This document shows, piece by piece, positions 45,318-49,639 of a DNA stretch of 64,000 bases. The translations under genes were made by a program, and so were the position numbers. Origin of the DNA: Novosphingobium sp. CECT 9465 (lineage in GTDB: Bacteria; Pseudomonadota; Alphaproteobacteria; Sphingomonadales; Sphingomonadaceae); NCBI RefSeq assembly GCF_920987055.1, contig NZ_CAKLBX010000001.1:1722501-1786500 (forward strand). The letters are read 5' to 3'. Below the pieces are notes generated by a model. The model was not told where the DNA came from, ran no database searches, and saw nothing but the letters and a program-made list of their open reading frames with translations. Within the stretch, counting starts at the first letter, position 1. Each line of letters opens with the position of its first letter.

Positions 45318-45404
45318 AAAGTGCTACCCAACCAATCGACTTTCGCACCTCAAATGGAAATCACACCGTTCTTCTTCCCAATGCCCGTTTCACGAGGCCC
45401 CTAC

Positions 45405-46181
45405 ATGGCAAATTCCAACCTGATCCGCTTGCTCTCGATCATGGCGCGCCTGCGTGATCGGGAACGCGGCTGCGAATGGGACTGCGCGCAGACCTTCGAG
45501 ACCATCGCACCTTACACGATCGAGGAAGCTTACGAAGTCGCCGATGCCATCGCACGTGCTGACATGCCGTCGCTCCGTGAGGAATTGGGTGATCTGCTGC
45601 TCCAGGTCGTGTTCCATTCTCGCATGGCCGAAGAACAAGGTCTGTTCGCCTTTGACGATGTGGCCGCAGCCATTGCGGACAAGATGGAAGCGCGCCATCC
45701 CCACGTCTTTGGTGGTGAGACCGACGCGGGCCAATCGCGTGACGAGCGCTGGGAAGCAGCCAAGGCCGCCGAACGTGCAGCCAAGGGAGCGTCGAGCGCA
45801 ATGGATGGCGTCGCTATAGCGCTCCCGGCCTTGATGCGCGCCGAAAAGCTGCAAAAGCGCGCTGCACGGCAGGGCTTCGATTGGGCGGACGCTCATGGTG
45901 CTGCAGAAAAGGTCACCGAGGAACTGGAGGAATTGCATGATGCCCGTTCTCACGAAGACCGTGTGGCCGAGGCCGGCGACCTGTTGTTTGCTGCCGTCAA
46001 CGTCGCGCGGAAGTATGGCGTAGCGCCCGAAGATGCCTTGCGCACAGCCAATGCCAAGTTCGAGCGTCGCTTCCGGGCTATGGAAGCCTTGGCCGAGGGC
46101 GGTTTCGCCACCCTTTCGCTCAACGATCAGGAAGCGCTGTGGCAGGCCGTAAAGCGATCAGAGGCTGGTGAAGCGGCCTAG
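45405..46181 (+). CDS. mazG: Nucleoside triphosphate pyrophosphohydrolase MazG
   Basis: 258 residues. ATG 45405 was chosen for the GAGG 7 nt upstream and the family beginning ANSNLIRLLSIMARLRD; an in-frame TTG at 45321 would start inside the IS30 element. Two MazG domains are visible, the first with EEAYEVADAI and REELGDLLLQVVFH and the second with TEELEELHDA and EAGDLLFAAVNVARK, carrying the metal-binding Glu/Asp residues. It hydrolyses NTPs to NMP and PPi. It converges on hflX with a 24-bp overlap of the two 3' ends. Confidence 0.94.
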   Translation: MANSNLIRLLSIMARLRDRERGCEWDCAQTFETIAPYTIEEAYEVADAIARADMPSLREELGDLLLQVVFHSRMAEEQGLFAFDDVAAAIADKMEARHPHVFGGETDAGQSRDERWEAAKAAERAAKGASSAMDGVAIALPALMRAEKLQKRAARQGFDWADAHGAAEKVTEELEELHDARSHEDRVAEAGDLLFAAVNVARKYGVAPEDALRTANAKFERRFRAMEALAEGGFATLSLNDQEALWQAVKRSEAGEAA

Positions 46182-47507
46182 TTCCCTGGGCGTGAGGCGC
46201 ACCTTTATCCGCATGGCCGGTTCGCCCCCCTCACCATCCAGTTGATGTTCTTCAACGATATCGCCGTGCGCGTGAAGCCATGCGAGCCGCTGTCCGTCTG
46301 AAAGCGGAACAGTCAAATCGAGCGTCTGGGCAGCGCCGGTCAGCATTTCACCGAGCTTTTCCAGAAACGCCTCCACCCCCTCGCCCGTCAGTGCCGAAAG
46401 CGGGGCGGTCGGAATGTCGGCGACCTTGGCGGCGATGATGTCCTTGCGCATCGCCTGCTCTTGCGCCGTCAGCAAGTCCCACTTGTTCCATACCTCGATG
46501 ACCGGAATGGCGGTGCCGCCATCGGCATTCACGCCAAGGTCCGCTAGGATCTGCTCGACTTCGGCCTTCTGGTCAGCCGTCGCCGGATTGGCGACATCGC
46601 GAACGTGCACGATAATGTCGGCAGCGGTCACTTCTTCCAGCGTGGCGCGGAAAGCGGCGACGAGTTGTGTCGGCAAGTCGGAGATGAACCCGACGGTGTC
46701 CGACAGGATGGCCTTGTCCACACCGGGGAGCCGGATCGCGCGCATCGTGGGATCAAGTGTGGCGAACAGCAGATCCTCGGCCATGACCGTTGCGCCAGTC
46801 AGGCGGTTGAACAGCGTCGATTTTCCAGCGTTGGTGTAGCCGACCAGCGCAACTACGGGCCACGGCGCACGCTGGCGTCTTTCGCGATGCAAGCCGCGCG
46901 TACGGCGAACCTGTTCGAGTTCCCGACGCAGGCGCGCCATGCGGTTTCGGATCAGGCGACGGTCAGCCTCGATCTGGGTTTCGCCCGGCCCACCCAGAAA
47001 GCCGAAGCCGCCGCGCTGGCGTTCAAGGTGCGTCCATGATCGGACCAGCCGCCCCGCCTGATAATCGAGATGAGCGAGTTCGACTTGAAGCCGACCTTCC
47101 GCAGTCGCCGCGCGCTCCCCGAATATTTCAAGGATCAAGCCGGTTCGGTCGATCACCTTGCGCTTGAGCTTGTCTTCCAGATTGCGCTGCTGGATGGCTG
47201 AAAGCGCCCCGTCCACAATCACGAGTTCGGCATCGGACTGATTGCAGGCAACGCCGATGCGCTCCACCTGCCCTTCGCCGAACAGTGTTGCAGGCCGGAC
47301 GGCACGGATCGGCAGGATGAACGAATCCACCACCTCGATGCCGATCGCACGGGCAAGGCCCTGCCCTTCTTCGAGCCGGGATTCAGCATCTGTGCCGAAG
47401 CCGCCCCCCCGTTGCTTGATATCGGGGAGGACGACTACGGCACGCGCGCCACGGGTGACTTCACCGGCAACGTCGCCGGTATTATTGCCAAATTCGAAAG
47501 TGCTCAG
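46158..47507 (-). CDS. hflX: GTPase HflX, apparently CTG-initiated
   Basis: 449 residues from CTG 47507. Homology-like text ([30 protein letters not shown]) continues upstream of the first conventional start (GTG 47333), and no ATG, GTG or TTG lies in frame before it. The CTG forms a CTGA overlap with the hfq stop and has GAGG upstream. GTPase motifs G1 [13 protein letters not shown]3 DTVGF, G4 NKWD and the N-terminal glycine-rich [13 protein letters not shown] are present. HflX splits stalled or stressed 70S ribosomes. It is the last gene of the ntr-hfq operon. Confidence 0.85.
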
Positions 47508-48085
47508 GAATCCTCGCCATCCCAGTCGCCGGTAAGATCAACGTGACCGGCAGGCTGAATTGTAGAAACGGCATGCTTGTAGGCGAGTTGGACATAGCCT
47601 TCGCGCTCAAGCAGCATGCAGAAAAGATCGTAAGACGCCACTTTGCCCTGCAGCATCACGCCGTTGACCAGGAACATGGTCACCTGAACGCCGGAATCGC
47701 GCACACTCGACAGGAACACTTCCTGTAGCAAACGCGCCTTCTTGCCGTTTTCCTCGCCAGATGTCTGGAAGTGGGCAACCGACAACTGCTGACCCGGCAT
47801 GATCGTGGAAATGGCATGCTTGTAAACAAGCTGAGACTGGCCATCCCTGCGTAAAAGGATCGAGAAATTGTCGAACCAGGTGACGATTCCCTGTAGCTTG
47901 ACGCCCTTTACCAGGAACATCGTGACAGGAACCTTGTTCTTGCGGAGATGATTGAGGAACAGATCCTGAAGGTTCTGGCCCTTGCCGCCGGTAGGTCCCG
48001 ATGCAGGGGCAGGCGTTGCGCCTTCCACTACAGGAGCAGGTTCAGCCTTCGCGCGCGGGCGTGCGGTAAGCGTTTTTCCGGTCAT
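47504..48085 (-). CDS. hfq: RNA chaperone Hfq, two fused Sm domains
   Basis: 193 residues where a normal Hfq has about 80. A Pro/Ala-rich N-terminus (1-36) is followed by Sm domain 1 at about 38-102 ([29 protein letters not shown]) and Sm domain 2 at about 119-183 ([29 protein letters not shown]). Both keep the proximal-site YKH motif (88-90 and 169-171). Domain 1 keeps NHLRK on the rim; domain 2 has SSVRD. Three such chains could make a six-domain ring. Hfq assists sRNA-mRNA pairing. It lies between ntrX and hflX, to which it is coupled. Confidence 0.96.
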
Positions 48086-48253
48086 TTCTCGTGACTCCGT
48101 TTTCTATTGGCTTGGCCCGTTAAATAGGCCTCGCGATCTGGCCGTTACAGCTTGCGCTGCAATTGCCGGGTTCATCATGATTGTATGTCGCCATTCGCTT
48201 CAGGTAAACCTGGGAAATGGCGCATGGCTCCTAATTCATGCGTATGCGCACAC

Positions 48254-49639
48254 CTACTCGTCATCCTCGCCTTCACGCCGATCAGCCATGCCGAGCAGCT
48301 TGAGCTTGCGATGCAGGGCTGATCGCTCCATCCCGATAAAGCTCGCCGTCTTCGAAATATTGCCCGAAAACCGCCTGATCTGGACCTTCAGGTACTCCCT
48401 CTCGAAGTTCTCGCGCGCCTCGCGCAGGGGCACACCCATCAATGCCGAGCCGCCGGATTCGCCGCCCATCGGCGTGGCCACAATTTCCGACGGGAGCATA
48501 TCGCCATCGATCCGCGCCAGCCTGTCACGCGGGGCAAGGATGATCGTGCGCTCTATCACATTGCGCAACTGGCGGACGTTGCCCGGCCAGTCGTAGCTTT
48601 GCAGCGCCGCCATGGCTTCAGGCGTAACCGCGGGGGGGGCAACGCCCTGTTCATTGGCATATCGCGCGAAGAAATGGTCAACCAGTGGCGGAATATCCTC
48701 GCGCCGCTCAATCAGTGACGGAATCGCAACGGGTACGACGTTCAGCCGATAATAGAGATCCTCACGGAAGCGCCGCTCGGCAATTTCCTTTTCCAGCGGT
48801 CGCGAAGAGGATGAGACGACCCGCACATCGACGCGCAACTGCCGATGCCCCCCGACACGCGCAAACGCCTGTTCGGTCAGCACCCGCAGGATGCGCGCCT
48901 GGCTCGATGCAGGCATGTCCGAAACCTCGTCGAGGAACAGCGTTCCACCGTCGGCCATTTCCAGAAGGCCCGCGCGGACGAGTTTGCCGTCCACTTCCTC
49001 GCCAAACAGTTCCTGCTCGAAACGCTCTGGTGTTATCCGCGCGGAATTGACCGTGACAAAGGCATTCTGCGCACGTGGGCTCCATGAATGGAGCAGGCGC
49101 GCGGCCACCTCCTTGCCCGATCCGGCAGGCCCCGTGATCAGCAGCCGACTGCCGGTATTGGCAACCCGCTTCAGCGTGGCCCTGACCTGGTTGATCGCCG
49201 TGCTGTTGCCGGTGAATTCGTCAGCCATGACGAAACCCTGGCGAAGGCGCGCGTTTTCGCGGCGCAAGCGCTCTGTCTCGGTCGCGCGCTCCACCAGCAG
49301 CAACAGACGTTCGGCTTCGAAGGGCTTTTCGAGAAAGTCCATCGCGCCGCGACTGATCGCCGAAACCGCGGTGTCGATATTGCCATGGCCCGAAAAGATG
49401 ATCACCGGGAGTTCGGGTTCGCGCTTCTTGATCTCGTCGAGCACTTCCAAGCCGTCCATCGGACTGCCGTGAAGCCACACGTCGAGCAGCACGAGACTGG
49501 GGCGACGCTCATCGATTGCGGCAAGGGCTGCGGTGCTGTCGGCCGCCAGGCGGCAGCCATAGCCTTCGTCGCTCAGCACACCCGCCACCAGTTCCCTGAT
49601 GTCGCGTTCATCGTCGACGATGAGGATATCGAGTGCCAT
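48254..49639 (-). CDS. ntrX: Response regulator NtrX, sigma-54-type ATPase without GAFTGA
   Basis: 461 residues. An N-terminal receiver domain (phospho-acceptor Asp in LVLLDVWLHG), AAA+ domain with Walker A GPAGSGKEVAA and Walker B TLFLDEV, and a C-terminal Fis-type HTH (NISKTASFIGMERSALHRKL). The GAFTGA loop that contacts sigma-54 is absent (LFGEEVDGKLVRAGLLE instead), as known for several alphaproteobacterial NtrX proteins. It probably regulates without sigma-54. It forms a pair with NtrY upstream (11 bp gap). Confidence 0.92.
   Translation of the reverse strand: MALDILIVDDERDIRELVAGVLSDEGYGCRLAADSTAALAAIDERRPSLVLLDVWLHGSPMDGLEVLDEIKKREPELPVIIFSGHGNIDTAVSAISRGAMDFLEKPFEAERLLLLVERATETERLRRENARLRQGFVMADEFTGNSTAINQVRATLKRVANTGSRLLITGPAGSGKEVAARLLHSWSPRAQNAFVTVNSARITPERFEQELFGEEVDGKLVRAGLLEMADGGTLFLDEVSDMPASSQARILRVLTEQAFARVGGHRQLRVDVRVVSSSSRPLEKEIAERRFREDLYYRLNVVPVAIPSLIERREDIPPLVDHFFARYANEQGVAPPAVTPEAMAALQSYDWPGNVRQLRNVIERTIILAPRDRLARIDGDMLPSEIVATPMGGESGGSALMGVPLREARENFEREYLKVQIRRFSGNISKTASFIGMERSALHRKLKLLGMADRREGEDDE

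Follow-up and report, generated by a model that had tools for sequence, protein, structure and literature searches.

Solved Hfq cores are single hexamers (PMC6561178), and a gene that places two Hfq domains in one chain raises the question of what ring such a chain would build. We addressed this question with hfq of Novosphingobium sp. CECT 9465, which lies on the reverse strand at 47504..48085 of the 64,000-nucleotide stretch of DNA that was analyzed (the window) and encodes a protein of 193 aa with two Hfq/Sm domains. The ORF starts with ATG and runs for 193 codons without internal stops. Searched with PF17209, the whole chain scored 182 bits and gave two matches, the first to profile positions 1-63 (residues 39-101, window 47783-47971; 107.1 bits) and the second to positions 1-62 (residues 120-181, window 47543-47728; 80.3 bits), both above the curated cut-off of 27 bits. 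A profile search of the 4.4 Mb genome returned no PF17209 match beyond these two domains, and 47504..48085 encodes the sole recognisable Hfq of the cell. These matches bear out the initial annotation, which had read two complete Hfq domains in one chain; the motifs it listed are all present (NHLRKNK in domain 1, SSVRDSG in domain 2 and YKH in both). The possibility it had raised of two genes parted by a missed stop is rejected, because the ORF is uninterrupted and 485 related two-domain chains are continuous across both domains. It had also pointed to an earlier record of doubled Hfq in Novosphingobium, and Yang et al. 2010 (PMC2877685) describe a Zymomonas mobilis Hfq with two Sm-like domains and report the same for six other Sphingomonadales species. 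Tandem Hfq as a kind has been on record since 2010 or earlier, and the host protein is a real and conserved one.

The chain opens with an N-terminal extension (residues 1-38; 47972..48085, reverse strand) that is predicted to be mostly disordered (pLDDT below 50 at residues 10-30 and 32-35). This extension of about 38 residues begins near TL(S/T)ARPR and is common to many Novosphingobium and Erythrobacter-type relatives, Zymomonas being without it; ‘ARP’ occurs within the first 20 residues of 109 of the 350 listed relatives. In domain 1 (residues 39-101; 47783..47971, reverse strand) the rim residues Asn13, Arg16, Lys17 and Lys19 are kept and Lys28 and Lys31 form a derived pair, residues being numbered here and below as in E. 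coli Hfq. A linker follows (residues 102-119 between the Pfam matches, or 14 aa by the boundaries of our comparison; 47729..47782, reverse strand) and leads to domain 2 (residues 120-181; 47543..47728, reverse strand), which has an eroded rim, Asn28/Met31 and Gln63, and keeps the pore residues Gln8, Lys56 and His57. The proximal pore residues, YKH together with Gln8, are found in both domains. The chain ends with an acidic C-terminal tail (47507..47542, reverse strand) whose final residues are GDWDGEDS.

Upstream of hfq lie ntrY and ntrX (the latter at 48254..49639, reverse strand), as well as a promoter-like site, TTTACC-17-TACAAT, recognized by consensus match only (48180..48208, reverse strand). 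Downstream lies hflX (46158..47333, reverse strand), for which the start given is that of the listed ORF and the true start may be further upstream. The ORF at window 45321-46181, which we presume to encode a MazG-like pyrophosphohydrolase, is convergent with hflX and overlaps its end. Among the matches listed, the closest named records are Novosphingobium genomes, at 91-92% identity. In 60 doublet stretches from other genomes of the host family, hflX was present in all 60 and ntrX in 59, the Zymomonas stretch L160 being the exception.

A single-sequence structure prediction of the host protein reached a mean pLDDT of 39, and an alignment-based monomer model gave two confident Hfq/Sm folds (block pLDDT 90-97, pTM 0.71). 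With Foldseek and VIA-align, each predicted domain, taken singly, matched solved Hfq chains. The best solved-structure match was Caulobacter crescentus Hfq, 6gwk (E 1.2e-30 over domain 1), and TM-scores against the listed 6gwk chains, normalised by those chains, ranged from 0.82 to 0.99.

Spread and origin of the doublet

We counted PF17209 matches in a draw of 396 Sphingomonadales genomes. In the host family, for which the matches listed were counted by eye and the total of 313 was obtained by subtraction, 300 genomes had two matches and 13 had one. All 61 of the two-match genomes that were read, host included, carry both domains in one frame; the other 239 contribute a match count only. In the 83 genomes from other families of the order we found one match in 76, none in six and two in one (G001), whose ORF read, L123, is single-domain. 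A class-wide draw of 114 genomes included 112 from outside the host family, of which 96 had one match, 15 none and one two. In this last genome, G443, the two matches sit on different contigs, and no independent fusion was seen in the 83 order genomes and 112 class genomes. The phyletic survey of Hfq by Sun et al. 2002 reportedly mentions Novosphingobium.

The initial annotation had suggested aligning related sphingomonad genomes to date the fusion. In a tree of ntrX and hflX from 85 genomes, some of them without one of the two proteins, all 61 doublets fell in one clade (support 0.992), and an IQ-TREE analysis of 50 rows gave a single change from single-domain to doublet (SH-aLRT 100). We found no reversion to one domain: 12 of the 13 single-domain genomes of the host family were read (the thirteenth, G245, was left out of the reading), and all 12 branch outside the doublets. 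One of them, L113, is placed beside an outgroup genome, and the remaining 11 come together with weak support (0.517). On these trees, one origin is the best supported reading for the tandem Hfq, and judged by sequence the host protein shares descent with the tandem Hfqs of Sphingomonadales, including that of Zymomonas, L160.

Linkers are 12-16 aa long in 134 chains and 7-15 aa in seven chains from the divergent genus g13. The medians for single-domain Hfq are 11 aa for the tail and 4 aa for the lead ahead of the domain. The linker is thus about as long as the tail plus the lead of a single, as expected if a whole hfq gene had been duplicated in tandem and the first stop lost. The Zymomonas linker reads MAERKSSLLQDVF and resembles an hfq start; Met is present in just 16 of 141 linkers, and as a trace of the duplication this start-like linker is suggestive only. 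We propose that an in-frame tandem duplication of hfq gave rise to the doublet in an ancestor of most of the host family.

Three Hfq domains were found in six of the 350 proteins listed by three homolog searches, at lengths of 241-248 aa, all of them on metagenome contigs of at most 1621 bases. By the signature at positions 28 and 31, described below, their order is domain 1, domain 1, domain 2 in P0111, P0122 and P0124, and domain 1, domain 2, domain 2 in P0070, P0085 and P0087. Five of the six carry long exact internal repeats (25-69 residues), and four of the five have a middle domain made of domain-1-like and domain-2-like parts, P0111 being ambiguous; either unequal crossing-over or misassembly could have produced the repeat-bearing forms. 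P0124, with domains 74, 54 and 56% identical to one another and a longest exact repeat of 12 residues, appears to be the best case and the least likely misassembly. All six may be real or misassembled. No genome in the 396-genome order draw has more than two matches. Among 61 genomes of genus g13, only G515 has three, and no match was found in three genomes, all less than 85% complete. G515 was rejected as a three-domain gene, since its match ranges (1-28, 27-62 and 1-61) amount to one broken domain plus another. If three-domain forms are real, with two chains per ring, they would indicate that the host family explores other divisors of six.

Differences and constraints in the two domains

We compared 485 doublet chains, which are kin and not independent, with a single-domain set of 50 rows, 40 of them distinct. 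The doublets comprise 141 loci and 344 database proteins, the latter being the best 120 of capped candidate sets and close to the queries. First, we observed that 479 of the 485 chains, host included, carry Lys/Lys at positions 28/31 of domain 1 and Asn/Met at those of domain 2, where all 50 single-domain rows have Asn/Lys. Counted one by one, Lys28 of domain 1 is present in 484 chains, and in domain 2 Met31 is present in 483 and Gln63 in 482. Positions 28 and 31 of both domains together carry two basic residues in 483/485 chains, as many as two single domains do. The six exceptions to the signature are L184-L187 from the divergent genus, the MAG L109 and protein P0063. In L109, domain 1 is without Lys31 and domain 2 has a new Lys28, and the total is kept, as if by compensation. 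L184-L187 come from small genomes of genus g13, and their doublets are strongly diverged in both domains, with Tyr55 of domain 2 replaced by Phe in three of the four; in the seven sampled members of the genus the median tail is one residue.

Second, the rim differs between the halves. Asn13 and Arg16 are present in domain 1 of all 485 chains, and in domain 2 Asn13 is found in 18 and Arg16 in 433. Position 17 of domain 2, the second basic rim position, is D in 158 chains, R in 129, K in 104, E in 29 and other residues in 65, that is R or K in 233. At position 19, the third basic rim residue, Gly is commonest (262/485) and R occurs in 54. The acidic rim residue that the initial annotation had pointed out in domain 2 is thus present here and is not a family trait, D or E being found at this position in just 187 of the 485 chains; by this comparison, the general rim losses of domain 2 are Asn13 and the third basic residue. 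The residue directly before position 47 is Arg in domain 1 of 482 chains, and domain 2 has Glu there in 296 chains, Arg in 106 and Gln in 66; we take this Arg to be Arg49 of Caulobacter Hfq. With Arg16 in 433/485 and R or K next to it in 233/485, the rim of domain 2 may be weakened rather than dead.

Third, the median net charge is +4 in domain 1 and -1 in domain 2 (134 chains, divergent genus excluded), compared to +4 in singles. The two domains are thus non-equivalent, the second with the weaker rim, as had been read from the host sequence alone. The tail after domain 2 has a median charge of -5 and the linker after domain 1 of +1. An acidic tail is kept after domain 2 while the linker is no longer acidic, which would preserve one acidic tail per full rim.

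Despite its eroded rim, domain 2 keeps near-invariant pore and A-R-N pocket residues, as judged by alignment. Gln8 and Lys56 of the pore are present in each domain of all 485 chains, and His57 in 484 for domain 1 and 485 for domain 2. The distal pocket residues Phe25, Gly29, Val30, Gln33, Gln52, Ser60 and Thr61 occur in at least 481 of 485 in each domain; in domain 2, Phe25 and Gly29 are invariant like the pore residues, and Gln52 and Thr61 are found in 484.

This conservation bears on whether domain 1 alone might form the working ring, with domain 2 as a pendant that inhibits, tunes or simply decays. Domain 2 is indeed the half further from singles (median identity 55%, compared to 75% for domain 1), and it is net acidic with rim residues lost. 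However, a pendant domain would not need its invariant Gln8, Phe25, Gly29, Lys56 and His57 (485/485), and a mutant of Z. mobilis points the same way. The Zymomonas protein L160 is identical to P0121, named for Z. mobilis ZM4, and the primers of Yang et al. match L160 exactly, so we took L160 as ZMO0347. Yang et al. generated their hfq mutant from a suicide plasmid into which an internal piece of hfq had been cloned (PMC2877685), presumably by single crossover. On L160 the primers span 2587-2748, that is codons 48-101 and a fragment of 162 bp, compared to 262 in the paper. The promoter-side copy should then retain the whole of domain 1 but no more of domain 2 than its first helix. Growth of the mutant was about 60% lower with sodium acetate and was partly complemented (PMC2877685). 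Should this truncated product be made, domain 1 by itself would be insufficient; polarity on hflX or instability may also explain the phenotype. Together, these observations make a pendant domain 2 very unlikely in our view.

Proposed arrangement of the domains in the ring

Two domains in one chain, one doublet clade, near-fixed differences and conserved pocket residues are all observed, and from the residue pattern we infer that a ring of three chains, with its alternation and its consequences for RNA, is most likely. Ring arithmetic is in favour, since solved cores are hexameric and six is three times two. We hold it to be likely that three tandem chains join into a single ring of six domains, with domain 1 and domain 2 in alternation, pockets in both domains and a full rim in domain 1 only. 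Proximal uridine pockets and distal A-R-N pockets would come from both domains, and the full basic rim patch for annealing would be found in domain 1 only, so the ring would have three full rims and three acidic tails where a ring of singles has six of each. Lys31 would have been lost from domain 2 and Lys28 gained in domain 1 on the distal face, which would keep six basic side chains per ring but place them with three-fold symmetry. The residue pattern suits such a ring, with pockets in all positions and with full rims and distal lysines in alternate ones. The comparison lends weight to the alternating, non-equivalent sites first proposed at the rim, and it extends the idea to the distal face (Lys28/Lys31 compared to Asn28/Met31).

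Conservation alone fits one alternating ring and two stacked rings alike. In the stacked arrangement, six chains would form a ring of domain 1 and a ring of domain 2, and the asymmetry would lie between rings. Both domains have complete folds and pocket residues, a linker of 12-16 residues might bridge the two rings, and fixed differences between the domains are expected there too. However, stacking would put twelve lysines at 28/31 in the ring of domain 1 and none in that of domain 2, the count of two basic residues per chain (483/485) is more readily understood if the residues share one face, and solved Hfq cores are, as stated above, single hexamers. We therefore regard stacked rings as unlikely and return to the alternating three-chain ring.

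What alternation would do to RNA binding can be judged from other Hfqs. In E. coli, the rim change R16A nearly abolished sRNA chimeras, and K31A cut chimeras about four-fold with mild effects in reporter tests (PMC12262471). In Pseudomonas Hfq, residues 28-31 contact the A and N nucleotides of A-R-N repeats, the contacts described for 28 and 31 being made via main-chain atoms and the N pocket at 28/30 being a simulation result (PMC8121710). Because these contacts are main-chain and the pocket is simulated, side-chain changes at 28 and 31 may matter less than supposed. Main-chain contacts would suit a neutral fusion that simply sped up the assembly of an ordinary, hexamer-like ring, with no specialisation of the halves and with differences that are relics of the stem branch. 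An ordinary sphingomonad Hfq role also agrees with it: according to a review, the action of SuhB on thnR in Sphingopyxis depends on Hfq, which may have one domain or two in that species (PMC6563040). Against it, Lys28 (484/485), Met31 (483/485) and Gln63 (482/485) persist through a clade that spans many genera, a pattern that resembles constraint and not drift, and we think a fusion devoid of specialisation improbable.

The chances are slightly short of even, in our judgment, that the ring has lost its six-fold symmetry and that the work is divided in a three-fold ring, one half of each chain bringing rim annealing and all the distal basic residues at 28/31 and the other a holding site. If this is true, the gain of Lys28 and the loss of Lys31 would have been the step by which the halves became committed to separate tasks. 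An alternating ring would also be a natural experiment on the number of functional rim and distal sites that an Hfq ring requires. This is difficult to study in E. coli, where one point mutation alters all six sites; here, mutating one half of one gene would change each kind of site at three positions.

Comparison with known systems

The nearest described system is that of Z. mobilis, for which Yang et al. 2010 raised the question whether the active ring is made of three chains (PMC2877685). Like the host protein, ZMO0347 combines two Sm domains in a single chain, is followed by hflX and shows the Lys/Lys and Asn/Met signature. Unlike it, ZMO0347 has no N-terminal extension and has Met16, Gln17 and Gln19 in the rim of domain 2; no ntrX was seen in the 5.2 kb around L160, which lies on a separate branch of the doublet clade. 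In the accessible part of the openly licensed literature, we found neither a discussion of the doublet beyond Yang et al. 2010 nor a mention of the reciprocal 28/31 change with the one-sided rim. In the available text of a spaceflight paper on N. aromaticivorans, Hfq appears only in the reference list (PMC10725011).

Caulobacter crescentus Hfq (6gwk) resembles the host protein in its acidic C-terminal tail, which in Caulobacter docks on the basic rim (PMC6561178), but it is single-domain, with six identical subunits, six rims and six tails. The eukaryotic Sm/Lsm rings are, like the proposed Hfq ring, assembled from Sm domains that are related to each other but not alike (PMC2877685). They consist of separate proteins and are seven-membered, whereas here two domains share one chain and six would make up the ring. 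If the alternating ring is true, it would mirror in bacteria the shift from rings of equal subunits to rings of unequal ones among eukaryotic Sm proteins.
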